In this document: positions 1-24,171 of the stretch, one piece after another | How positions within the stretch are numbered: position 1 is the first letter of the stretch | How the letters are laid out: the number at the start of each line of letters is the position of its first letter | NCBI RefSeq assembly: GCF_016405985.1 | Contig: NZ_JAEFCF010000005.1 | Coordinates: 1 to 64,000 of the forward strand | DNA length: 64,000 nucleotides | Direction: 5' to 3' | From: Paracoccus sp. IB05 | GTDB taxonomy: Bacteria; Pseudomonadota; Alphaproteobacteria; Rhodobacterales; Rhodobacteraceae | Program-made: the position numbers and the translations under genes | The notes under the pieces: model-generated | What the model was told of the DNA's origin: nothing | What the model saw: the letters and a program-made list of their open reading frames with translations, nothing else | The model's database searches: none

Positions 1-2
1 TT

Positions 3-647
3 GCCCCCGGTGGCTCTGACCCGAACTACATGGGCAATGCTATCGCTGACGCGGGTATGATCCTCGCGGATGCGTGGGCGAAGCGTACTGACGCCCAGAA
101 GCTCCAACGCTCTAACGAGCGGATCAAAGAGCTTCAAACCAAGCTCGATCATCAAACCCTCCGGCCCAAGGTCGGTGGGGTCTATGCCCAGCGGGAAATG
201 TCGCCTATGCTGCCTGCAGCAAATGGGGGCAGTAATGGTCAAAATGCTTCGTCAGTACCTCCTTCTGGTGGTTCTGCTCGCATTCCTGATGGGGATAATG
301 CTTGGTTTGGGCGGGGTCTAAGCACTAAAAGTGCTTTAGACGACCGTCGAAAGGTCGATAATCAAGATATCAAGACTCATCCCGGGGTCATGGTTCTTGA
401 TAACCCCAATCTCCCCTTTGATATCTACGTCCCGACGCTTGATGGGGATGAGGCTCTCACCTTCAATGAGTTGCCGGGGCTTCTGGCTGCCGGCGCTGCC
501 ACCGCTGGCGTTCACGCCGTTCGTGGTGCGAGGGGTATGTATAACCTCTTCGCTGATCCTCACTCCGGCAAGCGGCCTAAAATGGCTGGTGGGCGCGTAA
601 AGTCGCCCAAGAAAAACAGCGCTGGTAAGCGCCCGTTCCAACCATGA
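3..647 (+). CDS. Microvirus DNA pilot protein (VP2/H-like), 5' truncated
   Basis: Forms the DNA-delivery component of the microvirus capsid. The frame is open from base 3 (reading APGGSDPNY before the first ATG at 30), so the gene starts upstream of the window and the ATG at 30 is internal. Visible features: an alanine-rich start, a helical coiled-coil-like stretch at about residues 20-45 of the visible part (QKLQRSNERIKELQTKL), a Gly/Ser-rich linker, then a segment with VPTLDGDEAL that resembles the C-terminal part of pilot proteins in related phages. The tail is basic (KSPKKNSAGKR), as expected for a DNA-contacting protein. The stop codon overlaps the start of the next small gene (ATGA). 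Identification rests on position, composition and the partner genes; sequence conservation in this family is low. Confidence 0.7.
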   Translation, partial: APGGSDPNYMGNAIADAGMILADAWAKRTDAQKLQRSNERIKELQTKLDHQTLRPKVGGVYAQREMSPMLPAANGGSNGQNASSVPPSGGSARIPDGDNAWFGRGLSTKSALDDRRKVDNQDIKTHPGVMVLDNPNLPFDIYVPTLDGDEALTFNELPGLLAAGAATAGVHAVRGARGMYNLFADPHSGKRPKMAGGRVKSPKKNSAGKRPFQP

Positions 648-742
648 AGCGCTGCAAGAAATGCGCTGAACGCCGCGCTGCTTTGAAGCTGGCGGCGAAA
701 AAATTCATCATCAAAATCAAGCCTAAAAGGAACGTCAAATGA
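644..742 (+). CDS. 32-residue basic J-like DNA-binding protein of the microvirus
   Basis: This open frame encodes 32 residues. Its ATG overlaps the pilot gene's TGA and its own TGA overlaps the capsid ATG (ATGA at both ends), which strongly suggests translational coupling and a real gene. The product has 15 Lys or Arg residues and a CKKC motif near the N terminus. Known: microviruses carry a tiny basic protein (J in phiX174, a VP8-like protein elsewhere) that condenses ssDNA in the capsid; its gene is often missed because it is so short. Inference: this is the equivalent. The paired cysteines could bind metal or form a disulfide. No homology search was possible. Confidence 0.65.
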   Translation: MKRCKKCAERRAALKLAAKKFIIKIKPKRNVK

Positions 743-2319
743 CGACCTATCAAAACGCGCGCAACACGCGCCGCGAGAGCATCACTAATCTTGGCCGCTT
801 CCGTGGGGGCATGCTCTCTCCGGTCGCGTTCACTGCCGTTCGCCCGTCCGAAGGTGGTATGCTTTCACAGCAGATCACCTATGAGCTGGATCCGATCGCC
901 GGTCGCATGGTCACGCCCATGTATGCGGAACTCACAGTTGTATTCGTCCCTGTTCAGGCGATGGATGCGCTGAAAAACCCTGACGCAGATTACCCTGGAC
1001 TGACTGAGGTCGTGCGCGAAAAATACCTCTCGGGCAATCCGCTGTTCGTGCTTGAAAACGAGAATGAAATCTCTAAGCGCTGCCGGATCAATCCCCGGTC
1101 CATCGGCGGTGTAAAAAAGGTTTCCGAGACTATCCGGCTCGGCCATAACGCCGCCGTCAACTTCCTGCGCACCCGCAAGTATGTGAAGGCGACAAAGCTT
1201 CTGGCGTCCTCTACCGCGAGCACCCCTGCCCTGATCAGCCGCACGTCTCTGGAAATGCTCAACGGCGTTCTTGATCCTGACGACCGGATCAATGGCGAAG
1301 TTCAGTTGGCGCTGCCGACTGTTCAGCTTCCGGTCTATGGTATTGGCACCAATGCCAACCCGTCTGGTGCGGGTGCCTTGGCTCCCGCTATCAAGGAAAG
1401 CAACAGCAAAGTCAGGGACTATGCGAAGGGGTACAGTACCGCTGTTACGGGTAACGGCGTTCATATCAATGTGACGCCGAGCGGTCATCCGCATGTCTTC
1501 GCGCAGCTTGACGCTGTTGCCGCTGGCGGCTTGTCCCTCACCGATCTGTACAACGCAGAAAAGAAAGACAGCCTCGTTCGTATTCTGCGCCAGATCGTTG
1601 ACGAAAATTCCGAGTATGGCGAGGAAATGGCTGTGCGCTATGCGCATGGTATGTCTGTTGACCCGGGAAGGAACCCGTTCATCCTCTCGGAACAGCGCGT
1701 CCAGTTCGGGCGTAACCTTGTCGGCGCTTCCGATACTACCGGCGTTCAGGAAAATGTCCGGCGCTCTGACATGGCTGCATCCATCAATGTGATGGTGCCT
1801 GTTCCCAAAACCGAGCTCGGCGGCGTGATCATGACTTTCGCCTCGCTCAAGCCCGACGAAACGCTTGCGGCGCAACCTCACCCCTTCCTCTCGGATAACT
1901 GGGGCGTTGATAACTTCCTCGCTGACGAACTGGCGCTTGATCCTGTTCCGGTCACTATCCGCGATCTTTCCAGCAATCCGCCAAACGCTGCCGCTGAAAG
2001 TACACGCGTCATGTACACGGGCCACAATGCCTTGAAACAGACCTATGTCAGCTACGGCCTGAGCCGCCAGCTTGACCCTACCACGGTCGAAAACAAGACC
2101 GCTATCTGGCAACTGGAAATCCCTCTCTCGGTCACGCCGGATAACATCCTGTATCCGGCTGACCTGCCCCATTACCCCTTCGCTGACCAGCTTGCAGAGG
2201 TCTGCACGTTTACCATTGCGTCAAACATGACGCTTGGCACTCCGATGATCCTTGGGCCGACGCCGGTGGAAACCCTTGCAATCATCGACAGCGATAACCT
2301 GTTCGGAGACGACGAATGA
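739..2319 (+). CDS. Microvirus major capsid protein (VP1/F)
   Basis: Builds the T=1 icosahedral capsid. The 526-residue length is typical for microvirus F/VP1 proteins (about 500-600). The N-terminal segment (residues 10-60, with a conserved Gly/Ser-rich stretch leading into YELDPIAGRMVTPMYAELTV) and the VFVPVQAMD motif resemble the start of the jelly-roll in alphaproteobacterial microvirus capsid proteins. Later segments with RVQFGRNLVGASDTTG and an LPHYPFADQ region near the C terminus also fit the family. An AAGGA ribosome site lies 8 bases before the ATG at 739. The start overlaps the J-like gene and the stop overlaps the next gene by 4 bases, so capsid genes are translated as a coupled set. 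The frame is intact with no frameshift. Confidence 0.92.
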   Translation: MTTYQNARNTRRESITNLGRFRGGMLSPVAFTAVRPSEGGMLSQQITYELDPIAGRMVTPMYAELTVVFVPVQAMDALKNPDADYPGLTEVVREKYLSGNPLFVLENENEISKRCRINPRSIGGVKKVSETIRLGHNAAVNFLRTRKYVKATKLLASSTASTPALISRTSLEMLNGVLDPDDRINGEVQLALPTVQLPVYGIGTNANPSGAGALAPAIKESNSKVRDYAKGYSTAVTGNGVHINVTPSGHPHVFAQLDAVAAGGLSLTDLYNAEKKDSLVRILRQIVDENSEYGEEMAVRYAHGMSVDPGRNPFILSEQRVQFGRNLVGASDTTGVQENVRRSDMAASINVMVPVPKTELGGVIMTFASLKPDETLAAQPHPFLSDNWGVDNFLADELALDPVPVTIRDLSSNPPNAAAESTRVMYTGHNALKQTYVSYGLSRQLDPTTVENKTAIWQLEIPLSVTPDNILYPADLPHYPFADQLAEVCTFTIASNMTLGTPMILGPTPVETLAIIDSDNLFGDDE

Positions 2320-2777
2320 CCAATATTCACCGCAAGGCCGTATTCCTGTCCGCTGCTGGCGGTCGCATCGACTTCGTTCATGACGAAAGCGGGGAGCTTC
2401 TGGCTTCGGTCGCAATTCCCCCAGGGCGAATTGATGCTGCCCCCTATCTCGATATCGAGATCGAGGGCGCTACCGCTGAAATCATCGACGTGGCTGTCGT
2501 CAATCCGCGCTCCGCTTACGGCGCGGTCGAGTATGGCGAAGGCTCCTTCGACACGGCGGCTAACCCGGAGTTCCAGCCTACCCCCGCCTCTGCTCTTGAG
2601 GCCGACATGCGGCATATGATGCGCAAGCTGCAAGGCACTGAAAAGCGCCTTCAGGCCCGTATGGCGGCGCTTGATACGCTTGAGCGCATACCGGACAACC
2701 CGGAGCCGCTCATTGAGGCCCCTGCCCCGTCTCCTGAGCCTGCGCCGGTCCCTTCTCCGGCTCCTGCCGCTGAATGA
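2316..2777 (+). CDS. Microvirus hypothetical protein after the capsid gene, possible scaffold
   Basis: Encodes 153 residues; starts in an ATGA overlap with the capsid gene and ends in another with the next gene. The N-terminal 80 residues look like a small beta-rich domain (alternating hydrophobic strands with AAPYLDIEIEG). Residues 90-125 form a charged helix (EADMRHMMRKLQGTEKRLQ) likely to be a coiled coil, and the last 25 residues are Pro/Ala/Glu-rich and disordered. Known: microviruses need an internal scaffolding protein (VP3/B) encoded near VP1. Inference: position, size and a helical plus disordered tail fit such a role, but I see no family signature, so this is only a suggestion. Confidence 0.6.
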   Translation: MTNIHRKAVFLSAAGGRIDFVHDESGELLASVAIPPGRIDAAPYLDIEIEGATAEIIDVAVVNPRSAYGAVEYGEGSFDTAANPEFQPTPASALEADMRHMMRKLQGTEKRLQARMAALDTLERIPDNPEPLIEAPAPSPEPAPVPSPAPAAE

Positions 2778-3121
2778 CTTCACGGCGCTATATCAAGCGC
2801 GTCTGGCGCGTCCCGAAGGATCGGGGCGCGTTAGAGTACTTCGCCACGCTTGTGGTCAAGGCGCTTGTGAAACACGGCTGGCCCGCCAGGTGGAAACCCT
2901 GCGGTGATCCAGAGGCTGACGGCTGGTTAGATGGCTTCGTCATTTACGAACAAGGCAAGGATACGGGCGATCTGCCGCCCGACTTCCAGAACGCAACAGA
3001 AATCGCTGTCCGCATCGTCGCCCGCACATATCGGGTCGACGTGACGCAACATTACAACTGGGTCGGTCTCAACCGCCCCTATGTCGTCACCACAAGCGGA
3101 CACTTCAAAGAGGAAAAGTGA
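2774..3121 (+). CDS. Microvirus hypothetical protein, 115 aa, Trp/Tyr-rich
   Basis: A small protein I do not recognise. It overlaps the previous gene by ATGA and ends 3 bases before the amidase start, so it belongs to the same coupled operon. The product starts with a basic segment (MTSRRYIKRVWRVPK), then mixes helix (residues 17-35) and strand-like segments rich in Trp and Tyr. It has no signal peptide and no clear transmembrane segment. Being next to the amidase it could assist lysis or host entry, but nothing in the sequence proves that. The coding call rests on the overlaps and the full-length open frame. Confidence 0.6.
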   Translation: MTSRRYIKRVWRVPKDRGALEYFATLVVKALVKHGWPARWKPCGDPEADGWLDGFVIYEQGKDTGDLPPDFQNATEIAVRIVARTYRVDVTQHYNWVGLNRPYVVTTSGHFKEEK

Positions 3122-3124
3122 ACG

Positions 3125-3568
3125 ATGTTCACGCACGGTTCTGCAAAAACTCCCGTTCGGGAGGCTGTCCTTCACTGCGCTGCGATCAAGACCGGCCAAT
3201 TCAAGGGAATGAGGGCCTTTCAGGTCTTTGCCACTATCAATCAGTGGCATATCAAGCGCGGCTTTAAACACGGCTTTGGTTATCATGGCCTGTTCATGCC
3301 CGATGGTGATTTCGCTTGGGGTCGCCCTTATTCCATGGTCGGCGCTCACACATTGGGCCGGAACACCGGCACTCTCGGCTTTCTCATGATCGAAAGCCGC
3401 GAAATTACCCACATAGGTGAGTTCTCCGACTGGTTTACCGAGGATCAGCGCGAGGCTGTGAAATATTGCCTCTCGAAAATCCCCGGCCTTCAAAAGGTCT
3501 CGGGTCACAATGACCACGCCGCGCGGCTCTGCCCCGGCTTCAAGGTCAAATCGTCTGACTGGCTCTGA
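3125..3568 (+). CDS. N-acetylmuramoyl-L-alanine amidase (amidase_2, T7-lysozyme-like)
   Basis: Cleaves the amide bond between N-acetylmuramic acid and L-Ala in peptidoglycan; in a phage this serves host lysis or entry. The 147-residue protein matches the T7 lysozyme/amidase_2 fold in length and motifs. Likely zinc ligands are H17 (LHCAA), H128 (SGHND) and C136 (CPGF); Y53 (GYH) matches the catalytic tyrosine. The catalytic lysine two residues before the cysteine in T7 lysozyme is Arg134 here. The GRPYSMVGAHTLGRNTGTLG stretch is characteristic. There is no signal peptide, so it needs another route to the periplasm. It lies 3 bases after the preceding gene and is the last gene of the capsid operon. 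The phiX174-like microviruses lyse with a different protein (E), so an enzymatic lysin is notable. Confidence 0.85.
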   Translation: MFTHGSAKTPVREAVLHCAAIKTGQFKGMRAFQVFATINQWHIKRGFKHGFGYHGLFMPDGDFAWGRPYSMVGAHTLGRNTGTLGFLMIESREITHIGEFSDWFTEDQREAVKYCLSKIPGLQKVSGHNDHAARLCPGFKVKSSDWL

Positions 3569-3582
3569 TGATTTTGGGCGCG

Positions 3583-3695
3583 AGCTGACCGTTATTCCTG
3601 TGGAACATAACGGTCAGCTAGCGACCATTTAAGCCCTCGCCGCCCTATCTCAGATGGGCGGCGGGGCGTCTGCATACCCCTTGTTCCTGTATGCA
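3583..3695 (+). promoter_or_regulatory. Three consecutive hairpins before the replication gene
   Basis: The gap between the amidase and the Rep gene holds three perfect inverted repeats in a row: 13 bp arms (3583-3595 with 3607-3619), 8 bp arms (3638-3645 with 3656-3663) and 7 bp arms (3671-3677 with 3689-3695). None is followed by a T-run. On an ssDNA genome such hairpins would form directly in the virion strand. Inference: they may act as a termination/processing element for the capsid operon, a complementary-strand origin, or a packaging signal. Placement 30 bases before Rep also allows a promoter role. Confidence 0.55.
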
Positions 3696-3725
3696 CTTAA
3701 CGAGACTAAATAGGACTACCCCGCC

Positions 3726-4931
3726 ATGTGCACCCGCCCCCCGGAAATGAATGGCCACACTTTTTCGTGCCGGTCCTGTAATGACTGCCTCGACACGCGG
3801 CGGCGTCAATGGATCGCCCGCGCGCTGGCCGAAAAAACAGATCACACTCACACCCTCTGGGTCGACCTGACCTATTCCGAGGATACGCAGGAAGGCCGCG
3901 ATGCGGCTCAGATGTTCTGTTACTATGACGTCAAGATGTTCGTTGACCGGCTCCGGTCTGCTGCGCGGCGCTATGCCAAGCGCCACAAGCTGAACATCGT
4001 TCCTTATGTCCGCTTCCTTGTCGCTGGCGAACAGGGCGACCAAGAGGGGCGCTGCCATTGGCACTGCATCCTCTACACAAACTTTGACGTCCTCAAGATC
4101 GGCGAATTTCAAGCGCTGCGCGACGGAAGGCGCCAGATCGTCACTGACCGTAAAGACATGCTCACTGTCTTTGGCGGTCGAAAAATCCGCCTCAACTGGT
4201 CACTCTGGCCTGCCGGGTTCTCCTGCCTCCATGAGGTAGATCAGGGCGGGGCGTCCTATGTGCTCTCGTATGTAAATAAAGACCAGTTCACCGCTGAAAA
4301 GTCCGAAGGGACTATGCGGGAAAGCAAGTCAGAAAACTTCGCTACTGGTCTCTTCCGCATGAGCAAGCGCCCCGGCATCGGGGAAAACTTCCTCATGCGC
4401 AAATTCGAAGCTCTCGAAGCCTCCGGCTCGGTGCTTCCCTCTCTCAATATCAAGATCCCGGGTCTGAAGGGCTATTGGCACCCCTCCGGCCTTTGGCGGA
4501 AGAAAATCCTCTGGTGCCTTCTTGCTCTTAACACCCGCGCCCGTTGGGCGACTGGCTGCGATGCTGCCCAGTGGTCCTCTCTCCTTCGCAGCTGCGAAGA
4601 TAACCAACCTGATTTGGACATTCTCCATGGCAAAATCGACGAAACGGAAAACCCAGAAAACCCAGACTACGAATGCCCGGTCGGCAACGCCCGCAAGCGC
4701 GCCGCGTGGAACGCCGCAGAGCGCCCCCAAACCGCAACCCATGATGACCGCCGCTGCTCATGCTATGGCTGCCTCTCGGCGGCAACAGACGCCGATCTCG
4801 AAAGATGGGGCATCTTCCACCTTGTCGCGGGCAAGGGCTGCTCAGGCCAATTCTGGCGTGACGCCGACTGGCCCCACGGCTCCCCCCTCCCCGAGGAAGC
4901 CGCCTGTATCCTCTGGGCCTATTCGTCATAA
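3726..4931 (+). CDS. Microvirus replication initiator (VP4/A-like HUH endonuclease)
   Basis: Nicks the viral double-stranded form to start rolling-circle replication. The 401-residue protein carries an N-terminal cysteine cluster (C15, C18, C21) probably binding zinc, the HUH metal motif H111-W-H113 in GRCHWHCILY, and the nicking motif Y178-x3-Y182-x2-K185. Two tyrosines in that motif fit the superfamily-1 HUH initiators of microviruses. The C-terminal part from about residue 300 is Cys-rich and overlaps another gene in a different frame. The start at 3726 follows the three hairpins; the frame is intact. The Rep gene is last in the core order, which differs from some gokushoviruses and fits alphaproteobacterial groups. 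Confidence 0.88.
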   Translation: MCTRPPEMNGHTFSCRSCNDCLDTRRRQWIARALAEKTDHTHTLWVDLTYSEDTQEGRDAAQMFCYYDVKMFVDRLRSAARRYAKRHKLNIVPYVRFLVAGEQGDQEGRCHWHCILYTNFDVLKIGEFQALRDGRRQIVTDRKDMLTVFGGRKIRLNWSLWPAGFSCLHEVDQGGASYVLSYVNKDQFTAEKSEGTMRESKSENFATGLFRMSKRPGIGENFLMRKFEALEASGSVLPSLNIKIPGLKGYWHPSGLWRKKILWCLLALNTRARWATGCDAAQWSSLLRSCEDNQPDLDILHGKIDETENPENPDYECPVGNARKRAAWNAAERPQTATHDDRRCSCYGCLSAATDADLERWGIFHLVAGKGCSGQFWRDADWPHGSPLPEEAACILWAYSS

Positions 4932-5268
4932 TCCTGTCCTCACCCCTCCTAAGCCGGAACGTCTTATCCGCCGTCCCGGTCGGATCGCAGGCGTTCACTA
5001 CGCCGGGGCTGACAGAAAACGGTGGGACAAAAACCCCCCGGAGGCGGAGCCGAAGGGGGGTGTGGGGGTTCGGGGGAAAGGGGGGCTTGTCCCCCTGTCC
5101 CCTGAGACGTCTGCCAAGGTGCCTGACGCTTCCAAGTTGCACGAGCCTGCGAGTTCACCCACGGTGCGCGACGATAAACTAGAACGCTGCAAGGCCCGGC
5201 CAGACGACAACCGCCCGAAGGGCGGCGGCTCTGGAAAGAGCCGAGACTTCATCCCATGGTGTAAGTAA
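4627..5268 (+). CDS. Basic low-complexity microvirus protein overlapping the Rep gene
   Basis: Encodes 213 residues from ATG 4627, in the +1 frame relative to Rep, so its first 305 bases overlap the Rep C-terminal coding region. The open frame extends upstream to 4522, but the ATG at 4627 gives a plausible start (MAKSTKRKTQKTQ). The product is rich in Lys, Arg, Ser, Pro and Thr with no hydrophobic core. It ends in a Gly/Ser-rich stretch followed by RDFIPWCK. I recall similar aromatic-Pro-Trp-Cys tails on small microvirus proteins, but could not check this. It may bind DNA or assist assembly; function unknown. It is the last gene before the terminator hairpin. Confidence 0.5.
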   Translation: MAKSTKRKTQKTQTTNARSATPASAPRGTPQSAPKPQPMMTAAAHAMAASRRQQTPISKDGASSTLSRARAAQANSGVTPTGPTAPPSPRKPPVSSGPIRHNPVLTPPKPERLIRRPGRIAGVHYAGADRKRWDKNPPEAEPKGGVGVRGKGGLVPLSPETSAKVPDASKLHEPASSPTVRDDKLERCKARPDDNRPKGGGSGKSRDFIPWCK

Positions 5269-5291
5269 CTCCTAGGCAAATCCGCCAGGAC

Positions 5292-5343
5292 AAAAACCCC
5301 GGAAATTCCGCCAATCACAGGGCTGGGGATTTCCGGGGTTTTT
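5292..5343 (+). terminator. Strong hairpin terminator at the prophage right end
   Basis: A perfect 15 bp inverted repeat (AAAAACCCCGGAAAT at 5292-5306 and its complement at 5329-5343) flanks a 22-base loop. It ends in T5 on the plus strand and, because of the A5 at the other side, also works on the minus strand. It sits 23 bases after the last microvirus gene and 200 bases before the end of the convergent beta-barrel gene, so it likely stops transcription in both directions. Confidence 0.8.
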
Positions 5344-5432
5344 CGTTTCAAGGGGGACTCCCTTTCGCTGTCAATCTTTTCTGCTTGACAACATATTGTG
5401 TACCGTCCTAATCCTTGTGTTGCGCCTGCTAA

Positions 5433-5461
5433 CGTCTTGATAATGTTGCATTATCGGATGT
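5433..5461 (+). other. Candidate dif-like XerCD site beside the prophage
   Basis: An AT-rich dyad GATAAT-GTTGC-ATTATC (5439-5455) lies inside a layout resembling dif: an 11-base left arm ending in GATAA, a 7-base centre and a right arm starting TTAT. The E. coli dif dyad is CATAAT-GTAT-ATTATG. About 6 of 11 bases match the E. coli arm in each half by eye. Known temperate microviruses use host XerCD at dif. The centre is one base longer than usual, so the call is tentative. A second partial match (TTATGTT) starts at 5461. Confidence 0.3.
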
Positions 5462-5543: not shown

Positions 5544-8500
5544 CTAAAACTGGCTCGTGACATTCAGGAAGAAGCCGGTCCGGGGCGCATCGATCTTCCG
5601 CAGGTCATCATCGACTTTGCCCCAGAGGTATCCGCCCCCTACCCGCATATTGTCACCAAACAGCCGGTAGACGCCCAGCAGCGCGCCCGTTTCGGTGGTA
5701 TCCGAGCGCGGAGCATAAAGGCTGCGGACCTCGGCCATCACATCCCAGTTGTGAACGACGTGGTAATCAACCCGCAGGACAGCCAGATGCGCCTCGCTTG
5801 AGGTGAAGTCACTTGTTCCACGCCCGGCGCTGTCGCGCAGCCGATAGCCGTATTTGCCGCCCAGGGTCCAAAGCGGATCGACCTGCCAGCTAACAGCCGC
5901 ATTCAGAATATGGCTCTTTTGCTTCGGTCCATTGACGTCACCGTCGATATTGACCTGATCGGCACCCGGCAGGTCATAAAGATAGGTATAGCTGACCAGC
6001 GCATTCAGCTCGTCATTCCCGACCGGACGCCATGCATATCCAAGGCGGGTCTCGATGTAACGGCCATCGCGGAACGAGGACTGGTCGCTTTCCGAGATCA
6101 CCGCGTCGACCGAGGAGACAAAGCGCCAGTCCTGGCTGACCTTGGTTTCATAGAAGCCCGAAATCAGCCATGTATCGCGGTCAAGTTCATTGCCCGGACG
6201 ATCCGACCGCTCGCGCCGCCATTCGCCGCGCAGGCCCGCCGACATTACCTCTGCTTCGCTGTAGCGCACACCAAGCGATAGACCCTCACGCTTGAGGCTG
6301 CTGCCGTCGGTCTCACGCCCTTCGCCATATTGGATCATGCCGTCATAGCGCCAGCGCTGGTCGGGGGTATAGGTGACCCCATAGCCCGAGGTCAGTGCCG
6401 GCCTTGTGCCGAAAGCGCTGTAGTTGCTTTCGGTGGTATAGGCCCAATTGTCATTGACCTGCGAGCTGCTCCCGAAGACGAGGCTGCCCTTGTCACGCCC
6501 CGAAAAATCGCTGGCATCGAAGCGGCGCAGCGGATCAAGGCGGTAGCCGATTGTGGTGGTGGTATTGTCGTTAGGCCGGTAGCCGAACTCCAGCCGCCCT
6601 GCCCCGCCGAGGCTGCCGTCCGAAAGCTCGGCCGTCATCTCGGTCCGTTCAGAAAGCCGAAGCGTGCTGCCGATCCCGACCCGGTCATTGCTGCGCCGGG
6701 TCGGGTCATGCGACAATGTCGCCTGACCGAAGCCCCAGACCGAAAGATCGGCATCACGCTGCCATGTCACACGGACTGCGGCATCGGCCCGCCTGCCGAA
6801 ATCCTGCGGCGATCCGCTTTCGTCGCGGCGATCATGGGCCAGCTCACCTTCGACCTTCCACTGCGCGTTGATGCGATGGGCAAAGCCGATCCGGGCCTTT
6901 TCTTCACGATCACCATCGTCGCGCTTCAACCCTTCGCCACCAAAGGTCAGATCGGTGCTTGCGTTCAGCGCCACGGTACCGGACAGGCCCCAGGCATCCT
7001 GATCATATTCGAAATCGGCATCCGGCGACGAGAACCCCGCATCCTTGTGATCGAAGAAGGCCGCCAGTTCGCCGTCCAGCCCTGCAAAGCTCAGATCGGT
7101 CTTGCCCCCGATCCGCCAGGATGCCGCATCCAGTCCGGGCAGGCCATAGCTGGGGTTCGACGGCTCCAGGTCCAGACCACCGTTCAGCGAGAAACTGGAG
7201 CCGAAGCCAGGTCCCTCACTGGCAGCATATTCCAGCAGCAGCTCCCGGTCTTGCCCGCCCCGCAACAGGATGTCGACTCCGGCCAGCGTATTGTCGGCAA
7301 TGCCTGTGGTTTCACGCAGGGCAGAAGCGCCAAGCCGGATGCTGTTGTTGATCCAGCCTTCGCTGCGGGCACCGGCAGTATAACCGTCGATATCGCCGGT
7401 GGTCGGCACATATTCGTATTGTGCCACCAGATTGATATCATAGTCACCCAGTGGGTTGTTCTGGATCAGCCCGTCGCCGCCGGTGCTGGATGACAGCGGC
7501 CCGTTCAGGATGATCACCCCCTGCACCGAATTGATGCGGTAATCGGTCCCTTCTGTCAGGCGGCGGGTTTCAACCACCAGCCCGGTGGTCCGTGAGACCA
7601 CCTGGACAAAGACGCTTTCGCTGTCGGACAGGATATCCTGACGCGACAGGAAATAGGCGCTGCCACCGGTCGCACGCATCACGTCGCGCTGCATCAGACT
7701 GTCGGCCTGCGCGGCAAAACCGGTGACGCGCAGCTTCGTCTCACCGCGTGAAGTGACATCAAGATCGCGGTATTCCCCGGACAGACCATAGAGTGCCCGG
7801 TCGGTGCGGACGGTCAGCCCGGTGCTTTCGCGGGGTTTGAAATCGCCCCACTGCAAGTGGCTGCCGTCCCGCTCGGCCCGCAGGAAGAACTTGCCCGAAC
7901 TGGGAGCCAGCTCGGTCATGACGGAATCGTCACCGAAGGTGTTGAACACATCCTCGGACTTCATTTCCCGCAGCGTCTGATCGGGGTTCTTGCGGCCGAA
8001 ATTGCTGAAGAGGTCACGCAGCTCATCTTCCTGCGTATCGACCGAGGCGGTGATCCGGGTGCCATTGGCCAATGTGCCCTGAGCAAATCCGGCAATGCGG
8101 CCCATCTTCCAGGTGCCCTCATTATCGTCGCCGACCGTAAGGTCGATAATGCCGGTCGCAAACCACTCTGACTTTTCGATGGTGACCGAGCGGTCCATTC
8201 TGCGGCCATCGATGGCAATCGCAACGCCATGGGTGCCGGGCGGCAGGATGCGCTGGACCACGAAATTGCCCGACGGGTCGACCGGGATCCTTTCCCCCAG
8301 CACCTGCACCAACTGACCAGCGGGCGCATGACCCGAAACAGTGATGGCACCGCCCCGCACGGGAATGCTGCGACGGGCGGTCATGTCATCGCCCTCGGCT
8401 GCAGCCGTGACCGGACCGTCCAGATCGGCGGCAGCACTCCGGGCCGTGCGGTTCAGCACCAGACTGCGCGTCTCATCCCGCCGGCCGCCGGCATCGATGA

Positions 8501-9116
8501 CGCGCAGGAAATAGAGATATTCGCCCTTGCTCCGGTCTGCATCGGCAGCCGGCATCCGCCAGTCAGCGGTGCCATTGGCGCCGATCGGCACCAGCGCCAG
8601 TTCGCGGCCACGGCGGTCCGTGACCACCACCTCTGCACGTTCAACCCAGCCCGGATAGTTGGAAGAGGCCCTGAAAGTCACAACCTCTCCCGCAGCATAG
8701 CCCTGCCGCAGGTCGCCAGTGGCAACAGCCAGCCGGGGGCGTGCCCCAAGTCCATCATAGCTCAGATCCACACCGGCAAGGTCAAGCAGCCGGTCGATCT
8801 CGCGCAGCCTGTCAGGACGGGCCGGAGCCCCTGCGATGGTGCGCCTTGCGGCCCCCTCGCCCGCCGTCACCCCGTCGATGGAGATCGAGAAGCCGATCTC
8901 TCCCAGCGGGGCGGCGGGCGCGTCCGAGACATTGGGCTGGACCGGCCGGCTGACGGTGGTGCCGGCGTTGTAATGCAGGCAGTCACCCTCATAGACCGGA
9001 CCTTCGGCGCGGCAGTTATCCGCCATAACGGGCATGCCGAGGCCAAGCACCGAGACAGTCACCCCCCCCGCAAGAAGGGCTTTCAGCGTTGCAGAAGAAC
9101 GTTTGACAGGTTTCAT
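5544..9116 (-). CDS. Outer-membrane beta-barrel protein paired with the giant DUF11 protein
   Basis: A 1,190-residue protein with a signal peptide (hydrophobic stretch ending near residue 32, VMA). After an Ala/Pro-rich linker come Ig-like segments (about 110-320, with a PSGNFVVQRILPPGTHGV stretch like a carboxypeptidase-regulatory fold), a mixed region (about 330-580), and a long C-terminal part (about 600-1190) of alternating amphipathic strands. The barrel ends in aromatic-rich strands and a C-terminal Phe (NVTSQF), the signature recognised by the BAM complex. Its start overlaps the stop of the giant repeat gene by 4 bases, so the two are translationally coupled. Inference: it anchors, exports or docks the giant partner at the cell surface. 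It is not a TonB receptor: I see no TonB box or plug. Confidence 0.75.
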   Translation of the reverse strand: MKPVKRSSATLKALLAGGVTVSVLGLGMPVMADNCRAEGPVYEGDCLHYNAGTTVSRPVQPNVSDAPAAPLGEIGFSISIDGVTAGEGAARRTIAGAPARPDRLREIDRLLDLAGVDLSYDGLGARPRLAVATGDLRQGYAAGEVVTFRASSNYPGWVERAEVVVTDRRGRELALVPIGANGTADWRMPAADADRSKGEYLYFLRVIDAGGRRDETRSLVLNRTARSAAADLDGPVTAAAEGDDMTARRSIPVRGGAITVSGHAPAGQLVQVLGERIPVDPSGNFVVQRILPPGTHGVAIAIDGRRMDRSVTIEKSEWFATGIIDLTVGDDNEGTWKMGRIAGFAQGTLANGTRITASVDTQEDELRDLFSNFGRKNPDQTLREMKSEDVFNTFGDDSVMTELAPSSGKFFLRAERDGSHLQWGDFKPRESTGLTVRTDRALYGLSGEYRDLDVTSRGETKLRVTGFAAQADSLMQRDVMRATGGSAYFLSRQDILSDSESVFVQVVSRTTGLVVETRRLTEGTDYRINSVQGVIILNGPLSSSTGGDGLIQNNPLGDYDINLVAQYEYVPTTGDIDGYTAGARSEGWINNSIRLGASALRETTGIADNTLAGVDILLRGGQDRELLLEYAASEGPGFGSSFSLNGGLDLEPSNPSYGLPGLDAASWRIGGKTDLSFAGLDGELAAFFDHKDAGFSSPDADFEYDQDAWGLSGTVALNASTDLTFGGEGLKRDDGDREEKARIGFAHRINAQWKVEGELAHDRRDESGSPQDFGRRADAAVRVTWQRDADLSVWGFGQATLSHDPTRRSNDRVGIGSTLRLSERTEMTAELSDGSLGGAGRLEFGYRPNDNTTTTIGYRLDPLRRFDASDFSGRDKGSLVFGSSSQVNDNWAYTTESNYSAFGTRPALTSGYGVTYTPDQRWRYDGMIQYGEGRETDGSSLKREGLSLGVRYSEAEVMSAGLRGEWRRERSDRPGNELDRDTWLISGFYETKVSQDWRFVSSVDAVISESDQSSFRDGRYIETRLGYAWRPVGNDELNALVSYTYLYDLPGADQVNIDGDVNGPKQKSHILNAAVSWQVDPLWTLGGKYGYRLRDSAGRGTSDFTSSEAHLAVLRVDYHVVHNWDVMAEVRSLYAPRSDTTETGALLGVYRLFGDNMRVGGGYLWGKVDDDLRKIDAPRTGFFLNVTSQF

Positions 9117-12100
9117 TGTGCCACTCCTGCCCGCTCGACGACGGTCTCAATGTTCAGCTTGTACTTCCCGCTGTCCCGCCAGAGCGCATGTATAGCGCGC
9201 TCGACCCGGCGCAGACGTTGTTTTGCGTCTGCATCAGACTCGCTGCCCGCCAGCACATAGCTGATGCGCAGCATCGTGACGGTCTCGCGGATCTCGCCCA
9301 CCATCTTCTGCAGGCCTGCGTGCAACGCTGGTTTCAGATCACCGTTGGCTTCGAAGGCATTGGCCGAAAGGTCGACCCGTACCAGCCGCGCCAAAGTTGC
9401 CCCGAAATCAAGGCGCGTGATCATGCCTTGGGTCAGCCGCACAACGCGCGGGTTCTCTGTCGTCAGGCGATAGCCTGCCGGCAGGGTCCGTTCATCCAGC
9501 TTCAGCATGTAGTTTGAACCGAAGGTCTGCGGCAGGGCGGCGCAGGGCACGTTGAAGCGGCCATGCTCGTCAGTGACGATCGCCACACCATTCGGCGCAA
9601 TCAGGCGGATATTGGGCAGGCCGCGTTCTTCTGCGGATTTGCTCATATGACCGTTCTGGTCGGTATCATCGAACACCCGGCCCAGCACTGTGGCGCATTG
9701 CATCACCGCATCGGCAAGCACCCGGATCGTCGCCGTCGCCTCCTTGGCAATCTCGCCTCCGGTGGTGCTGTTCACGAGCCGCGCCCGGTTGGTATGGGCC
9801 CCCGGCTTGACCGAAGAGCCGATCAGCACGTTCAGCGTCAGCTGCCGCGTCTGGCCCGGATCAAGCCTGACACCGTCCAGCGTCACGTTCCGGCCCGAAA
9901 CCGAGGGCGTGACCGCGACACCGTCCAGCCGTGCCGAACCCTCGCGGTAGAGGAAGCCCGCAGGAAGCTGGTCGATGATCCGCGCCGTCAGCGGCACATT
10001 CTCGGCTGCGCTGGTGATGCGGATGGTATAGGGCACCACATCACCGACCATTGCTGTATCAACACCGGCCAGTTTCTCCAGACCGAAGCCGCCCCGACCC
10101 AGATCCGGAACCGCCGGGGTCGAAGAATTGGCACTCACATGCACTCCTGCATCCGAGCTGCCGGTGGCATCACCGCTCAGCACGACCTGCCCGCGATCCA
10201 CATCGGCTGCAGTCAGGGTATATGCCGCATTGCTGCATTCAAGGAAGGCACGCTCCCCTGGTTGCAGATTGATCGGCACACAGACCAACCCGGGCAGATT
10301 GAGCGAGAGTGAGGCCGGATCCATGGTGACACCATTCAGTGCCACGGTTCCGGTATTGATCACCTCGAAGCGGTAGATCACCTGATCCCCCTGCCCCATC
10401 ATGCCGTCGCCATTCACGTCACGCAGTTCACCCACGGTGATGTTCAGTTCCAGCTCTGGGTAGCCGAGTTCGACCAGCGCGCTGGCCGGATCCGAAGGTA
10501 CGGTGACCGCAGGCCCCCCGGCAGGCTGCCAGGTACCGCTTGCCGTCGCGGTGTTCTCACGCTTGGCGGCACGAATGTCGTCAAGCGTGATGGCATAGGT
10601 CCCGGTGATGGCGACACTGTCGCCCGGCGCAATACTGGCGACCGGATTTCCGGTCAGCACCAGGCCCGGCAGCGGATCACTCACTGTCACATTCGTCAGC
10701 GTGACGTTGCCGGTATTGGTCAGGGTGAAGGTATAGATGATTTCCTCACCGACCTGGGCCGAGGCCGAGATCCCGGAAGCATCGGCGGTCTTCTCCAATT
10801 TCAGACCGCTGCTGCGCACCGGCGAGATCCGCGTCGGGTCATTCGCCCCCGCGGTGGTGCCCGAGATGTCCTTCACCAGCACAGGGATCCCCGAGCCATC
10901 GACATAATTGCCGACCGCTTCAGCCTGATTGGTGATCGCCTCGCCGCTGTCGATATCAGCCTGCGTCAGCGCATAGACGGCGGTAAAGCTGGTGGCATCG
11001 GTCTGACCAGGCGCGAGGCTTGCGATCGGTCCGCCACTGATCTGCAGACCCGGCATCGGATCGTTCAGAACGATACCGGTCAGCGTCACATCACCGATAT
11101 TGGTGATGGCAAATCTGTAGTGCAGCAGATCACCGGGCCGGGGTGGTGTTCCAAGCGCCGAGGCGTCGACGGTCTTCACCAGATCGATCAATGGCGTCCG
11201 CGTCAGCGGGGTGACCGTGGGATCATCGTCAGTGACCGTGGTGCCGGACTTGTCGGTCACCACAACCGGCGTTCCTGTGCCGTTGTCAAAAGTACCCGAA
11301 GCAATCGCCTGGTTCTCGATCGAGCCGACATCAAGGTCAGACTGCTTGACGGTATAGACCGCCGAGAAGCTGGTGCTGTCGCTCTGGCCGGGCAGCAGGC
11401 TGATCGGGCCGCCCGATACCGTAGCCCCTGCAAGGGTTTCGGTCAGGGTGATGCCGGTCAGCGGAACGTTGCCGGTATTGGTGACGGTGAACACCCAGCG
11501 GACCGGATCGCCCAGCTTCAGGCCGGCCGGATCAACTGAGGGATCCAGCGCCTTGACCAATGCGATGGCAGGCACACCCGAAACCGGAGTCACCGTCGGC
11601 TCGTCCAGACCTTTGTCGGTCATGGAAGAGGACGTCACCGTACCGGGGCTGCCGGGCGGACCATAGTCACCGCTGGCAAGCGCACGGTTGGTGACGTTGC
11701 CGGCCGTGATGTCTTCGGCCGTAATCGCATAGCCTGCCGGTCCGACCGTAACGATATCGCCGGGCGCCATGATGCCGATGGTGAAGCTGCCCGGCGTCAG
11801 GCCCGTCAGCGGATCCGCCACTTCGACGTCACGCAGAGTGACATTACCCGTATTGGTGACAGTGAAGCTGTAGAGGATCTGCTGGCCGACCACGGCCGGA
11901 TCAGACAGCGCCGTCGCATCAGCACGCTTCACCAGTTCGATCTGCGGATCCTGCGGAACCGGAACGATGGTCTTTCCAGGTGTTCCCTCGCTCGGGCCCG
12001 AAGGCTCGTCGACAGGATCTGGACCGAAGGTACCGCTTGCAAGGGCCTGGTTCTCGACCTGACCTGCATCGATATCATCCTGGGTGATCTGATAGGTCGC

Positions 12101-15100
12101 GGTGCGCGTCTCGATTGCGCCCGGGGCCATGTCGCCAAGGGTGAAGGCGGCAGGGGTCATTCCCGGCAGCGGGTCGGCGATGGAAACCCCCTCGATCAGG
12201 ACGTTGCCGGTGTTCTTGACCGTGAAAGTATAGGTGATCGTCTCACCCACCACCGCCGGTGTCGAGATAGCGGAGGAGGCCGTCTTCACGAAGCTGAGTT
12301 CAGGAAGCTGATCGATCGGAACCACGACGGTATTCGAGGTTCCCGGCACATTGGTCACTGCATTGGTACCAGGATCCGTGAAAATCGCGTCAACCGTGGC
12401 GGTATTGACCACTTCGCCGGCCTCGATCTCATGTTGGCGGAGCGGATAGGTTGCGGTCAGGGTCACGGCATTGATTGCCCCCGGCTCAAGCACTGCGATG
12501 AGCCGCCCACCCGGCGTGAAATCCAGTCCCGGCAGGGGATCAGTCAGCTCGACCGCCGTCAGTGTCACATTGCCGGTATTGGTCACCAGGAAGCTGTAGG
12601 TGATCAGATCACCCGGCTGCGGCGGCACCGAAAGTGCGGGAACAGCTGATTTCACCACAGAAATGCCGGTCTGTTGGGTCAGCGGCAGAACCGTCGGGTC
12701 ATCCGTCCCGAGGCTTGTGCCGGAATCGTCGCTGACCGTCTGCGGTACGCCCGAACCGTCAACACTCCAGGTCCCCGTCGCCGTGGCCTGATTGGTGAGC
12801 GAACCAAGGTTCACATCCGCCTGGGTCAGCACATAGGTTGCACTCAGGGAAGTGCCGTCGGTGGCGCCCGGCTCAAGGACGGGCAGGCTGCCGGCCAGCA
12901 AGATCCCGGTCAGGGGATCATCGATGGTCACATCCGTCAGAGTGACGTTGCCGGTATTTGTGACGGCAAAGTCATAGTGAACCACGTCACCGGCCATGGG
13001 CGGAGTGGACAGAAGCGAATTCGCGGTATCGATCACCTTGACCAGATCGATGGACGGAGCCGGCGTCAGCGGCGTGATGACGGTGTCATCATCCGAGATC
13101 GTCGTCGGCGTGCTGCCCCATTCGCCCTCGGCCTCGGCGGTATTTTCATACAAACCGCGGTTGATGTCGGCCTGCGTCAGATCATAGCCGCCGACATCGG
13201 TCAGGACCCTGGAGTCGCCCGGGTTCAGAGTGAAGGGTGCGATCGCCGCATCGAAGGTCACGCCAAGGTCGGTCAGCGTGATATGGCTCAGGATCACGTT
13301 GCCGGTGTTGGTCACCGTGAAGCTGTAGCGGATCTCATCCCCGGGAACCGGAGCATTCACATCTGCAAAGCCCGAAATGCTGCCGGTCTTGACCAGCTCA
13401 ATCCCCGGCACTTGCGGGATGACCAGCGTGGTATCCTCATCGGTGCCGGTGGTATTGCCGGATTCGTCGGTGACAGTGCCACCACCCGCCGGATCCGTAC
13501 CCCAGTCACCGCTGGCCTCGGCGCGGTTATCCAGGTTGCCGCGTTCGATATCGGCCTGGGTCAGCGTATAGGTGGCAGTGAAGGTCGCGCTATCCGCCTC
13601 ACCCGGATCAAGGTCGATCGGCCCGCCCGAAACCACCGCGCCGATCAGCAGTTCGTCCACGGAAACATTTGTCAGCGTGACATTGCCGGTATTGGTGACG
13701 GTGAAGCCATAGGTGACGACCTCACCTTCCTGAGCCGGAGAGGACAGGGTTGAGGTGATGGTCTTGACCAGATCGATTGCGGCCTCCTGCGTGAGCGGGA
13801 CGGTCACCGGATCCGAATCCACTTCGGGGATCGTCAGATCGCCGCCGGTCGCGCGGTCGAAGTAATCACCTTCGGCGCTGGCCTGGTTGTCGACGCGGCC
13901 AAAGTCGATATCGGTCTGGGTCACATCATAGGTTGCGGTCAGGATAACGGCATTGGCCGCGCCAGGCTCAAGCGAAGCAACTACATTGCCTGCCGTCCAG
14001 ACCAGACCGGGCAGCGGGTCAGTAACCGTCACATCTGTCAGCGTCACATTGCCGGTATTGGTCAGCGTGAAGCTGTAGACGATCTGATCTCCCACCTCGG
14101 ACGGGTTCTGCACGCCGGTATCGTCAGCGCTCTTGACCAAGGTCAGACCCGGAGCCGGATCATAGGTCAGGTCAACGGAAGCCTGGTCATCGACGTCCAG
14201 ATCTGTTCCGGCCGGCCCGGTTCCGACAGCCGTCACTTCTGCATCATTGGTGAAGATGCCGGCATCTACATCCGCCTGCGTCAGCGTATAGCTGGCAGTG
14301 AATGTGGTGCTGTCAACGCCCCCGGCAGCCAGCGGCGTGGTGCGCGATCCCGTGATCGACACATCGTCAAGCTCGGTCAGGACGATATCGCGAAGTTCGA
14401 CGTTGCCGGTATTGGTGATGGTGAAGCTGTAGGTGACGATGTCACCCGCCATGACCGGATCAGTCGGGGCAGTCGTGATGGCTTTCGTCAGGCTGATCGA
14501 GGGGCTGCGCACAAGACTGACCACGGTCGGGTCGTCATTGGTCAGCTCGGTTCCGGAATCGTCGGTAACGACAGTTCCGTTCGGATCCGTACCCGTCGCA
14601 ACAGCAGTGTTTTCCAGTCCACCGTTTTCAAGATCGGAAACCTTCAGAACATAGGTCCCCGGGAACGACATTGATGCACCCGGCGGTATGCTCAGGAAAC
14701 CAAGAATTCCCGTATCGATCACCACATCAGGCAGGTCATCGGTCAGCGTAAGCTGGTTCAGCGTGACGTTGCCCGTGTTCTGGATCGTGAAGAGGAACTC
14801 GATCTCGTCACCCGGCATCAGCACGCCGGTCACATCGGTGATGAGCTCCTTCTTCAGCGCAATCGCAGGCGCCGGGTTGAGCGGCGTGACGGTTGGATCC
14901 TCATTCGGATCCGAAGGGTCATTGCCCGAGGGCGTATCCGGGAACGGATTGCCCGAATCCGGGACCGTACCCGCCACCTCGACCTGGTTCTCGACCTCGC
15001 CCGCATCGATCTCGACCTGACTCAGGGTATGGGTCGCCGTTGCGGTCGTGCTTTCGCCCGGCGCAAGCCGCGACTTGGCCGGAGGCGAGACGGTGGTATT

Positions 15101-18100
15101 GGCCAGAGGCTCGGAGATGGAGTCGATCACCAGACTGGTATTGCCGATATTCTCGATCGTGATCGTCCAGGTGACGGTATCCCTTTCAAAGGGCTCGGCC
15201 GGGACGGTCGTGGCCACCTTGGTGACCCGCATCAGAGCGTTCTGGAAGAGAGGCTCGACGATATCGTTGGAATTTGCTGAAATCGGTTGACGGCTCGGAA
15301 GATAGTCGCCGTCAACGGTGGCCCTATTGGTCACGCTGCCCGCGTCGATATCCACCTGGGTTACGGCATATTCCGCATAGACCACAGCCTGATTGCCCGA
15401 CTGTCCGAACGGCGCCAGCGAACCGATGGTGAAAGCACCCGCAGGCGATTCCTCGATGCCCGGCAGCGCATCGGTCAGAACCAGGTTGTTCAGCTGGGTA
15501 TTGCCCGTATTGGTGACGGTAAAGCTGTAGCGGATGGTGTCGCCGGCCACGGTCGGATCCTGGACACCACTGGTGACCAGCGCCTTCACTACGGTCAGAC
15601 CCGGCTCGGCCAAAGCCGTGACCGTTTCGGTGTCGTCGTCAGTGACGGTCAGATCGCCGGAACCATCCTCGCCCCATTTTCCGGTGGCGGTGGCGGTATT
15701 CTCGATCAGACCGCTGTCGATATCGCTTTGCTTGAGCGTATAGGTCGCGATGAAGGCACCCACCGGACTGGTGGTACCTGCCGCCAGCTGGGCCACGGGC
15801 GTATAACTGGTCCAGACCAGATCCACCATCGGGTCAGCGACCGTGACATTCAGCAGCGGCGTATTACCGGTGTTCGCTACCGAGAAAGTATAGGTGATCA
15901 CATCGCCCGGCACCGGAGGGTCTGACAGCTGCGAAATGTTGGCGGTCTTTGTCAGCTCTATCTCTGGCGCGAAGTTCAGAACCACCTCGGTCGGCGTGTC
16001 CAGGCCCCAGGTCGGCGTCGTCCCATCGTTGGAGGCATCGCTCAGGCGGGGATCGGTCGCTCCCTGAAGGCCAGAGAACTGGCCGTCGGCCTGCAAGGCT
16101 GCTGTATTGGGCAGCGTCATGCTGGAACCGGGACGCGGCACTGGCGGATTGACCAGCACTGTAACCTTGACCAAGGCCGTGCTCTGCGGCGCGATAGTCC
16201 CGCCGGAAATCACATCGTTACCACTCCCGTTGAAAGCCGAATTCAAAGTCAGGTCGCTGGCCGTGCTTAGCGAGCTAACAGCAAACGACCCGGGGGCAGG
16301 TAACGCACCGCTGAATGTGCCAAAGAGCGGGTCCAGCGTGTCACGCAGCCGGACATTGGTAATCGGCTCCTGACTGTTGTTCTGCAGTCTGAAGGTATAC
16401 TCAATTGAGTAGGTGCCATCGACCCGCAGCACGGGCGCGGTCGCCGATTTGGACAGCGCAAGCCCCGGAACCGGGATCAGGCTGAAATCCTTGGTCACAG
16501 CCGGCGCAGCGGTGGTCGCCGTAATGCCCAGGATCGATTGTGTGCCGCTTGCCGTACCTCCGCCAACGCCGGCCGGATAGGCCGAACCGGCTGTAAAGGT
16601 CCCGCCGGTGGGGATGGTATAGCTGACCTGATAGGCAACACCCGGGGGCAGCAGCGCAAAAACGTAATTCCCGGCTGCATCGGTGGTTGTCGTGCGGGTA
16701 ACCGAATCACCCAGCAGGTCTGTGCCGGTCAGCAGGACCGAAACCCCGGACACGCCGCTGTCCTGCGGAAGGTCGCGGATCTGGTTGAAGTCAAAATCGC
16801 GCCAGACCGTGCCAGAAACTTGCGTCGTCACGATGTCGATCGTGCCGGTTGCAGTATTGTTGCTCTCGTCGTCGAAAGACAGCGTCGAAACCGTTGCGCT
16901 ATTGCTGAAGATTTGCGGCGAACTGGTCACGGCAGTCACCCGGACGGGCACCCTGATCGAGATCGAGCTGCCAGCCGGCATGTCGGGAAGGATGCAGATC
17001 ACGTCACGGCCACCGACCTGGCCGTCGCAATTGCCCAGCGACGGAACAGGAGCACCCGTCAGCTCCATATGCGCCGGCAGCTGATCGACCAGCTCAACGT
17101 CTTCGGCAAGGCCGATACCCGCGCCGGCGACGTTGCTGACGACGATATCCCAGTCGAACCCTTCAAGCAGATCTGCCTCAGGCGCGGAAGCGGTCTTGCT
17201 GACCCGCAAATCGGCCCGTTCATAGACCGAGGTGGTTTCATTCACCACGTTATTGGCCTGCGGATCATAGGCGGCCTCGGCTGATGTGACCCGGGCACTG
17301 TTCGTCCAACGACCGCGGGTCACGCCGGTCATCTCGACCTCCAGGATGAGCGACTGGTTGACCGCGAGGTGCTCTGCGGAACAGACGATGCTCCCCCCGA
17401 TAGCGTTCAGCGCAGCCCCGGACGTCAGATTGCATGCCATGCCACTCGTCATCGGCCGCACAGCTACAAGCTGCATGCCTGCGGTCGGCAGAGTGTCTGT
17501 CATCACAACCGAGAAGGCTTCGGACGGACCGGCATTGATTGCCGTAACCGTATAGACGGTATTCCCGCCCAGTTCGAGCGGGTCGGTACTGTCGATCTTG
17601 TTGATGATCAGATCGAGCGCCGGAGCCAAAATCTGATGGCTGATCGCATCCGAATTGTTGGTGGAATCTATCTCCGGCGTAGTGGTGGAGACACTGACGG
17701 AATTGGTTATCGCGGAGCCCGTCAGTGCGGTCGAGGGCACCGTCACCACGGTCACCGAATGCTGGCTGCCGTTCTGAATGGTGCCCAGATTGCAGACAAC
17801 GCTGGAGCCCGCGGTCGTCAATCCGCCGGACAGTCCGCTCACTGCACCGCAGCTACCCTGGCTGGGCACTACGCTGACAATGCGCAGACCCGCCGGAAGG
17901 CTGTCGGTGACCGTCACATTCTCGGCATCTGACAGGCCGTTGGCCGGAACAATGGCTGCAATGGTATAGATCAGCTGCTGGCCCGCAGGCAGCGAGGCGC
18001 CTTCGTCGTGTGAAGCTGACTTCTCGACCACCACATCGGTCCGGGGCGTCACGGCATAGGGAGCCGTGGCCGAGTTGTTGGTATAGTCGGGGTCAGGGGT

Positions 18101-21782: not shown

Positions 21783-21980
21783 TAAGCCACCGGACGCTGG
21801 CAGCTGCTTTGCCGCCTCCTAAGGTGTAGCGCGAGCTTTACTCGTTAAGTTATTGATTTATAGTAGTATTTCTTCATCAGAAAACCACTCTCTAAACGCA
21901 ATTCTCGGCCTCAACGGTTTTGGCTGGATTAATCGAGCGAAACTGTTAAAGTGACAAAAATAACAACATCGAGGGCAGCA

Positions 21981-24114: not shown

Positions 24115-24129
24115 CCGCGGTCAAGACGG
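24106..24129. promoter_or_regulatory. parS-like centromere palindrome 2, over the repB stop codon
   Basis: A perfect 24 bp palindrome with the same TTGACCGCGGTCAA core, spanning the repB TGA (24112-24114). Two copies 54 bases apart allow cooperative RepB loading. Confidence 0.75.
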
Positions 24130-24171
24130 ACAACTCATAACAACGATAACGAGCAGAAAGGAGGACAGGAG

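Follow-up and report, generated by a model that had tools for sequence, protein, structure and literature searches.

A microvirus prophage at a probable recombination site of a repABC plasmid module in Paracoccus

Temperate phages with single-stranded DNA (ssDNA) genomes are usually described as users of the XerCD-dif system of their hosts. XerC/XerD-dependent integration has been shown for the enterobacterial gokushovirus EC6098 of Escherichia, according to the available passages of PMC7062461, and for Rhodobacter phage Ebor the available parts of PMC11980548 describe a prophage lying between XerCD dif motifs and state XerCD as its route. Here, we analyze a stretch of 64,000 nucleotides of Paracoccus sp. 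IB05 DNA (the window; bases 1-64000 of contig C64, which is 190,393 bp long in a draft genome of 5.29 Mb) carrying a microvirus prophage beside repABC genes. Its target is a near-palindrome of 29 bp whose centre spans 7 nt, located between divergent DUF1403(-ScpB) and tyrosine recombinase (INT) genes of a plasmid. Other genomes are denoted by G numbers and contigs by C numbers; contigs without a G number belong to Paracoccus sp. IB05.

The last 55 bp of C64 are identical to positions 1-55 of the window, and the identity stops before position 56. Such an exact end overlap is the usual mark of a circle opened by a k-mer assembler, and C64 is apparently a circular repABC plasmid of ~190 kb. The cut falls within the pilot protein gene (VP2), and the prophage crosses it; read across the contig join, the element measures 6,091 bp from core to core. 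An identical 19-bp core, ATAATGTTGCATTATCGGA, lies at both ends (C64:189687-189705 and window positions 5440-5458), so that the element is bounded by direct repeats whose phage-side arm has diverged, as in integrative mobile elements exploiting Xer (IMEX). With up to three mismatches, this core occurs seven times in the 5.29-Mb genome vs. no occurrence of a backwards-pattern control. The initial annotation, made from the letters of the window, had described a nearly complete microvirus with capsid, pilot, amidase, HUH Rep and J-like genes, and family scans and homology agree with these assignments. Extension to the left, suggested there, recovered the remaining 0.65 kb at the other end of the contig and completed the element, and the candidate repeat region at 5433-5461 was found to contain the core. 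The right limit had been set too early, at 5343, where a terminator-like hairpin ends; the true end is the core repeat.

All nine recognized prophage genes (gp1, gp2, VP2, VP1, gp5, gp6, amidase, Rep and gp10-like) are open, including the capsid and Rep frames already reported as such. No integrase was found among the open reading frames (ORFs) of the element, nor in family scans of seven of them. With its genes open and both repeats intact, the prophage is plausibly active and able to excise. In the proposed comparison with Microviridae references, the VP1 capsid protein was 56.7% identical to that of Ascunsovirus oldenburgi and 55.6% identical to that of Rhodobacter phage Ebor along almost its entire length; these two were the nearest and second nearest named relatives among the 32 phage records matched, and identities to Ebor, Ascunsovirus and Rhodobacteraceae prophages ranged from 55.6 to 59.7%. 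Because the Pfam Phage_F model gave no match to this capsid, its identification is based on tblastn and on the match to PDB 9ffg, a major capsid protein of 511 amino acids (aa) (E 4.5e-192); a Phage_F search of the own genome was uninformative, with no match and a control that matched in 0 of 14 genomes. VP2 is 34-40% identical to the Ebor and Ascunsovirus proteins over parts, and Rep is of the HUH VP4/A type, as indicated by REP_ORF2-G2P and phrog_942 matches together with HWH and YxxxYxxK motifs. In a capsid tree of 16 sequences (FastTree) without subfamily references, the prophage groups with Ebor and Ascunsovirus with a support of 1.0. The element is a complete, temperate microvirus, and on these comparisons we place it provisionally in the Ebor / 'Tainavirinae' group.

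The corresponding place without a phage is found on a related plasmid, contig G403:C7, which carries the same surface-protein genes and whose homology to the right flank (98.7% over 1,061 bp) starts exactly at the core. On the left side, G403 and C64 have in common only the 56-bp site arm (86%), and therefore the empty site is cleanly demonstrated on the right side only. Plasmid DNA adjoins the phage without a break on either side, in line with the microvirus prophage in a repABC replicon described in the initial annotation, and the repABC genes, placed there at ~17 kb, were confirmed by their domains 16.5 kb to the right of the right repeat. Given this contiguity at both ends and the phage-free flank of G403:C7, with its start at the first base of the core, non-integrated contamination is very unlikely.

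Around the core, a wider conserved site reads approximately CGGCG-TTTA ... TATCCGCCGC-CCTGTC ... ATAATGTCCAATAAnnTTGCATTATCGGAC. A search of 13 genus genomes with a 26-base pattern and up to three mismatches returned 36 occurrences in 12 genomes, never two per contig, and none in the controls; this count lists the palindromic site of C50 twice and leaves out the right copy of the prophage. An earlier, shorter pattern had given one control match (G401). In the least fragmented genomes, the site is present on 4 of the 10 contigs of G403 (C3, C4, C7 and C10) and on 6 of the 7 contigs of G404 (C1 and C3-C7), where C1 is a 3.4-Mb contig. Complementarity of the 11-bp arms, assessed for 42 distinct sites including those of 7 PLSDB plasmids, reached 0.775 at a spacer of 7 vs. 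0.17-0.29 at spacers of 3-6 and 8-11, a value favoured by construction, as the collecting pattern held inner arm bases. The presumed chromosomal dif of the genus, the 16-mer CATAATACTGATTATG with a 6-nt centre, was found once each in 9 of the 13 genomes, with three control matches in all (one in G403 and two in G404). The plasmid target departs from a chromosomal dif with a 6-bp spacer both in its 7-nt centre and in its arms, and canonical dif was accordingly rejected as the identity of the repeat. The persistence of the site where DUF1403 is decayed or undetected makes a DUF1403 promoter or operator a less likely cause of the conservation. A G403 chromosomal match with two mismatches, obtained with the earlier pattern, disappeared with the longer one and was dropped as chance.

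The same arrangement is found on plasmids well beyond the genus. With a 107-bp site copy from G397 as the query (E ≤0.1, some matches being weak), 166 of 72,556 plasmid records were matched at 167 places. Seven named plasmids of these 166 were opened, namely, Paracoccus aminophilus pAMI8, Allorhizobium ampelinum pAtS4c, Phaeobacter inhibens pP24_b, Afipia carboxidovorans pHCG3, Nitratireductor kimnyeongensis pNK_1, Sulfitobacter pontiacus p4 and Fuscovulum blasticum pRsa, from Rhodobacterales, Rhizobiaceae and Nitrobacteraceae. All seven showed the order DUF1403-site-INT in tblastn, with DUF1403 running leftwards and INT starting 151-803 bp to the right of the site; ScpB follows DUF1403 in six, and the recombinase is named by the annotation in six. 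Within the genus, INT starts at most 1.4 kb to the right of 13 of the 36 sites, at several of the remaining sites the contig ends, or a transposon or phage comes first, and DUF1403 or its remnants lie to the left of many. INT belongs to the Phage_integrase family; its scores for XerC and XerD, 52 and 46 bits, fall far below the cut-offs of 335 and 330, and it matched no PDB sequence at E 0.001. Close INT homologues (E <1e-100) are present in exactly the 12 of 13 genus genomes that possess the site, while G400 has neither the site nor a close INT (best match 33%, E 1e-6). Four stop-free INT genes were identified in the own genome (C81, C39, C80, where the gene is cut by the contig end, and C20); C20 carries an intact INT plus DUF1403 and no recognizable site. 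No functional description of DUF1403 was found in the literature searched. The DUF1403(-ScpB)/site/INT module is likely a plasmid recombination system with an exploited site, and it would presumably resolve plasmid multimers.

The microvirus of the window is not the only one found at such a site: microvirus sequence directly follows 9 of the 36 genus sites. Protein-level matches support this for C64, G394:C1 (partial capsid, 74%), G397:C118 (gp1) and G404:C5, where a relic comprises gp1, gp2 and the VP2 start followed by Rep (90%), with everything from capsid to amidase missing. Four cases (C38, C61, G395:C27 and G397:C16) were judged only from a leader of 45-65 bp, and the C50 site may be tied, through a transposon, to a relic on C16 by a common ACTTA. 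No right attachment site (attR) was found for the relics in G394:C1 and G397:C118, and none that was convincing in G404:C5. In the capsid tree, the two module-site capsids (window and G394:C1) form a clade that is sister to the G397:C136 prophage, with both nodes supported at 1.0; the latter, from the same genus, sits at the chromosomal dif 16-mer. Module-site phages are thus nested among dif users, and the simplest reading of these two tips would be a single change of attachment site within the lineage.

Several further observations concern these relics and the dif sites. In G404:C5, a single internal deletion joins the VP2 start to Rep, and a frameshifted DUF1403 adjoins the relic. Contig C16 (9600-10407) bears the degraded left end of a second microvirus, with the other end of the transposon within gp1 and, by eye, ParA/ParB-like genes upstream. 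G397:C136 harbors two microvirus prophages back to back at the dif 16-mer, one with a capsid 73% identical to that of the window and the other divergent (25%). Divergent VP2 matches lie about 0.4-0.8 kb from the chromosomal dif 16-mer in G403:C1 and G394:C1, and the dif copy of C44 has a similar flank, of which the 0.9 kb up to the contig end matched no phage.

These data raise a key question: which recombinase inserts the microvirus at the plasmid module site DUF1403(-ScpB) <- site -> INT? In the proposed mechanism, the double-stranded circular replicative form would carry the phage attachment site (attP), composed of one good arm, the common 7-nt centre and one poor arm; plasmid-encoded INT would recombine attP with the plasmid site and could later excise the prophage. 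Because the INT gene of C64 is itself dead, INT would have to be supplied in trans by other replicons. That INT catalyzes both integration and excision, acting in trans in this strain, appears to us more probable than not. A number of observations weigh against it, besides the construction of the arm symmetry value given above. INT on C64 is a pseudogene, site-bearing plasmids of G403 and G404 also lack an intact adjacent INT, and intact copies occur on large replicons in which no site was found (G403:C2 and G404:C2, ~0.5 Mb, and C20), so that action in trans must be assumed. The inner ATAA...TTAT is common to the plasmid site and dif, so that either could be a substrate of XerCD. In G404, one site on the 3.4-Mb contig has neither DUF1403 nor INT, so the site is not strictly plasmid-bound, and the co-occurrence of site and INT has a single negative genome, G400. 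Moreover, in IMG/VR, a capsid scan for a free relative matched 12 stretches, none of them a relative, and the 29 viral contigs with the site pattern gave no tblastn match to proteins of the phage or the module; on this search, nothing viral with the plasmid site appears outside the genus.

The main alternative is that the plasmid site is a variant of dif, that host XerC/XerD integrate the microvirus and that the adjacent INT has another role. The shared inner ATAA/TTAT halves fit this explanation, as does the persistence of sites on plasmids without an adjacent INT, and XerCD is the route shown for the enterobacterial gokushovirus and stated for Ebor in the passages cited above (PMC7062461, PMC11980548). 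However, the centre length and the conserved outer arms differ from those of the presumed chromosomal dif in the same genomes, the site stands between DUF1403 and INT in all seven opened plasmids, and INT and the site are found together in 12 of 13 genomes, the remaining one having neither; we therefore hold host XerCD to be an unlikely agent here, although one that deserves real weight.

Another important question is whether site-specific integration took place at this locus at all. The phage could have arrived passively, if homologous recombination with plasmid DNA or a further microvirus copy had brought it in: the 56-bp left arms of C64 and of contig C38 in the same genome share 96.4% identity, and this genome holds several microvirus fragments. 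Yet the core repeats are exact at both ends, and the right-flank homology to the unoccupied plasmid starts at the first core base, which makes passive arrival quite improbable. The junction could also be an assembly artefact, in which plasmid sequence was linked to a phage that was free or a contaminant, or the circle was closed wrongly, given that the contig is cut within the phage and that the join depends on a 55-bp end overlap. The overlap is exact, however, VP2 stays open through the join, and related phage relics occupy homologous sites in other genomes; an artefact is thus extremely improbable. Recombination by plasmid-encoded INT at the module site remains our preferred explanation, and the features of the locus are listed below with this in mind.

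Table 1 Features of the prophage and its plasmid surroundings (window positions unless a contig is named)
Feature	Position	Strand	Basis or remark
Prophage, left 0.65 kb, outside the window	C64:189687-190338		same contig, other end
Prophage, right 5.4 kb, up to the right core repeat	1..5458	+	C64 end overlap, core repeats
VP2/H pilot protein, C-terminal part	3..647	+	whole protein 278 aa, start C64:190149, open across join
VP1/F major capsid protein, 526 aa	739..2319	+	tblastn, PDB match
Ebor gp5 homologue	2316..2777	+	40% identity
Ebor gp6 homologue	2774..3121	+	47%
Amidase / peptidoglycan hydrolase, Ebor gp7 homologue	3125..3568	+	59%; family scans and homology
Inverted repeat between amidase and Rep genes	3575..3627	.	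self-match on other strand, 80%
Rep (VP4/A), 401 aa	3726..4931	+	HWH at residue 111, YxxxYxxK at residue 178
J-like basic protein, Ebor gp10 homologue, overlaps rep	4627..5268	+	homology
Terminator-like hairpin, GC-rich, with T run	5287..5345	+	by eye
attR: phage-side left arm and 19-bp core ATAATGTTGCATTATCGGA (core 5440-5458)	5429..5458	+	
Two very long ORFs, the larger with surface-type repeats	5544..20104	-	between site and second, decayed site
Decayed second copy of site core	20563..20580	+	4 mismatches
Second microvirus relic	20627..20877	+	gp1 80%, gp2 67%; beside decayed site
Plasmid INT pseudogene, residues 72-347	20854..21684	+	one in-frame stop and frame change
repA, repB, repC	21951..25519	+	ParA-type, ParB_N and RP-C domains

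For the J-like gene, the ATG at 4627 was picked by eye, and the ORF list gives a TTG start at 4522. The inverted repeat between the amidase and Rep genes is a candidate replication signal, and an Rfam scan of positions 1-6000 gave no match. Beyond the right core, the surface-protein operon reported in the initial annotation was substantiated for the 3,663-aa ORF (9113-20104), whose DUF7507, DUF11 and SdrD_B domains fit a surface protein, and not for the 1,190-aa ORF (5544-9116), which has no Pfam match. On G403:C7, 15 kb further on, there is a half-decayed site followed by an INT-type leader and a broken INT; homology between the window and G403:C7 breaks off at 20580 and resumes at 20877 within INT. 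The surface-protein genes lie beside the phage target and are not themselves the target; on this comparison, the 15-kb segment seems to be an earlier insertion between the site and INT. In the window (5440-20580), as in G403:C7, the segment lies between a full and a half-decayed site in direct orientation, as if brought in by the same recombination. Close to repABC, the second microvirus relic is fused to the dead INT gene.

Other elements are found at the same place. Toxin-antitoxin genes occupy it in pAMI8 and pRsa, and at 7 of the 36 sites (five in the own genome, G394:C8 and G395:C27), the end of a TniA/TniB/TniQ transposon lies 67-84 bp to the right of the site start, in one orientation. 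One copy (G394:C8, stretch L097, from 4980) encodes Mu-transpos_C/rve, TniB and TniQ. In the own genome, the transposon forms the ends of contigs C34, C37, C38, C50 and C61, whereas contigs C81 and C39 start with its other end followed by INT. If C50 and C16 are joined through a Tn7/Tn5053-like element, a 5-bp target duplication, ACTTA, would result (one case, by eye). The TniABQ transposon looks like a hunter of the plasmid site. More tentatively, and somewhat short of what we would call probable, we propose that alphaproteobacterial repABC plasmids possess, in DUF1403-ScpB/site/INT, an undescribed recombination module equivalent to XerCD-dif, whose site serves as a general docking port for microviruses, the surface-protein segment, toxin-antitoxin genes and the TniABQ transposon, and that one microvirus lineage switched from dif to this port and spreads by means of the captured plasmid recombinase.

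The initial annotation had regarded integration into a plasmid as a new setting. Capsid relatives are already present on 4 of the 72,556 public plasmid records, so a microvirus on a plasmid is as such not new in public sequence records; it is the kind of site that is new as far as these records go. Three of the plasmid relatives (Rhodovulum sulfidophilum, Tritonibacter and Aminobacter) have dif-type repeats with a 6-nt centre at both ends, and dif-type repeats also flank the prophages of Ruegeria THAF57, G382, G085 and G397:C136; in Rhodovulum MB263 (plasmid), G111 and G328, a dif-like site is seen at the left end only. These flanking repeats are short (13-19 bp) and were judged dif-like by eye. 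The attachment site of the G395:C8 microvirus (58% capsid identity) was not found. Our literature search, drawn partly from listings and passages, yielded no publication describing a microvirus within a repABC replicon. The phiX174 genome has 5,386 bp. In the available passages of PMC8224337, a microvirus 'prophage' with Phage_F, gene A and J domains that is identical in three roseobacters (5421, 5478 and 5441 bp) looks to us like a phiX174 sequencing spike-in plus assembly overlap.

Our results suggest that microviruses can borrow plasmid machinery to become dormant, and they point to a widespread plasmid module whose function is now testable. If the proposed mechanism is true, integrase-less viruses could switch host recombinase by changing a site of ~29 bp, and plasmids would become vehicles for temperate ssDNA phages.

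Rhodobacter phage Ebor, likewise temperate and without an integrase, has the same gene order (VP2, VP1, gp5, gp6, lysin, Rep, gp10), with identities of 55.6% for the capsid, 59% for the lysin and 47% for Rep. It differs in having a putative methylase, at the place of which no open frame was matched here, and in its site, which the consulted portion of PMC11980548 gives as an XerCD dif motif in the cbbII operon, in contrast to the plasmid module site of the window. Ascunsovirus oldenburgi ICBM5 is similar in its capsid (56.7% over the whole length), whereas its record is unannotated and lysogeny is not evident from it. Gokushovirus EC6098 is also integrase-less and carries the host recombination site as one good and one poor copy, but it belongs to another subfamily and uses XerC/XerD at a chromosomal dif with a 6-bp spacer, as far as the available text of PMC7062461 describes it. 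A parallel to the neighbouring transposon is provided by the dif-targeting IS1202-family elements, which, according to the abstract of PMC10132070, take a single orientation and keep a fixed distance relative to Xer sites; the element found here shares oriented insertion at a fixed distance from a recombination site and differs in possessing TniA, TniB and TniQ and in its position 67-84 bp from the site start.

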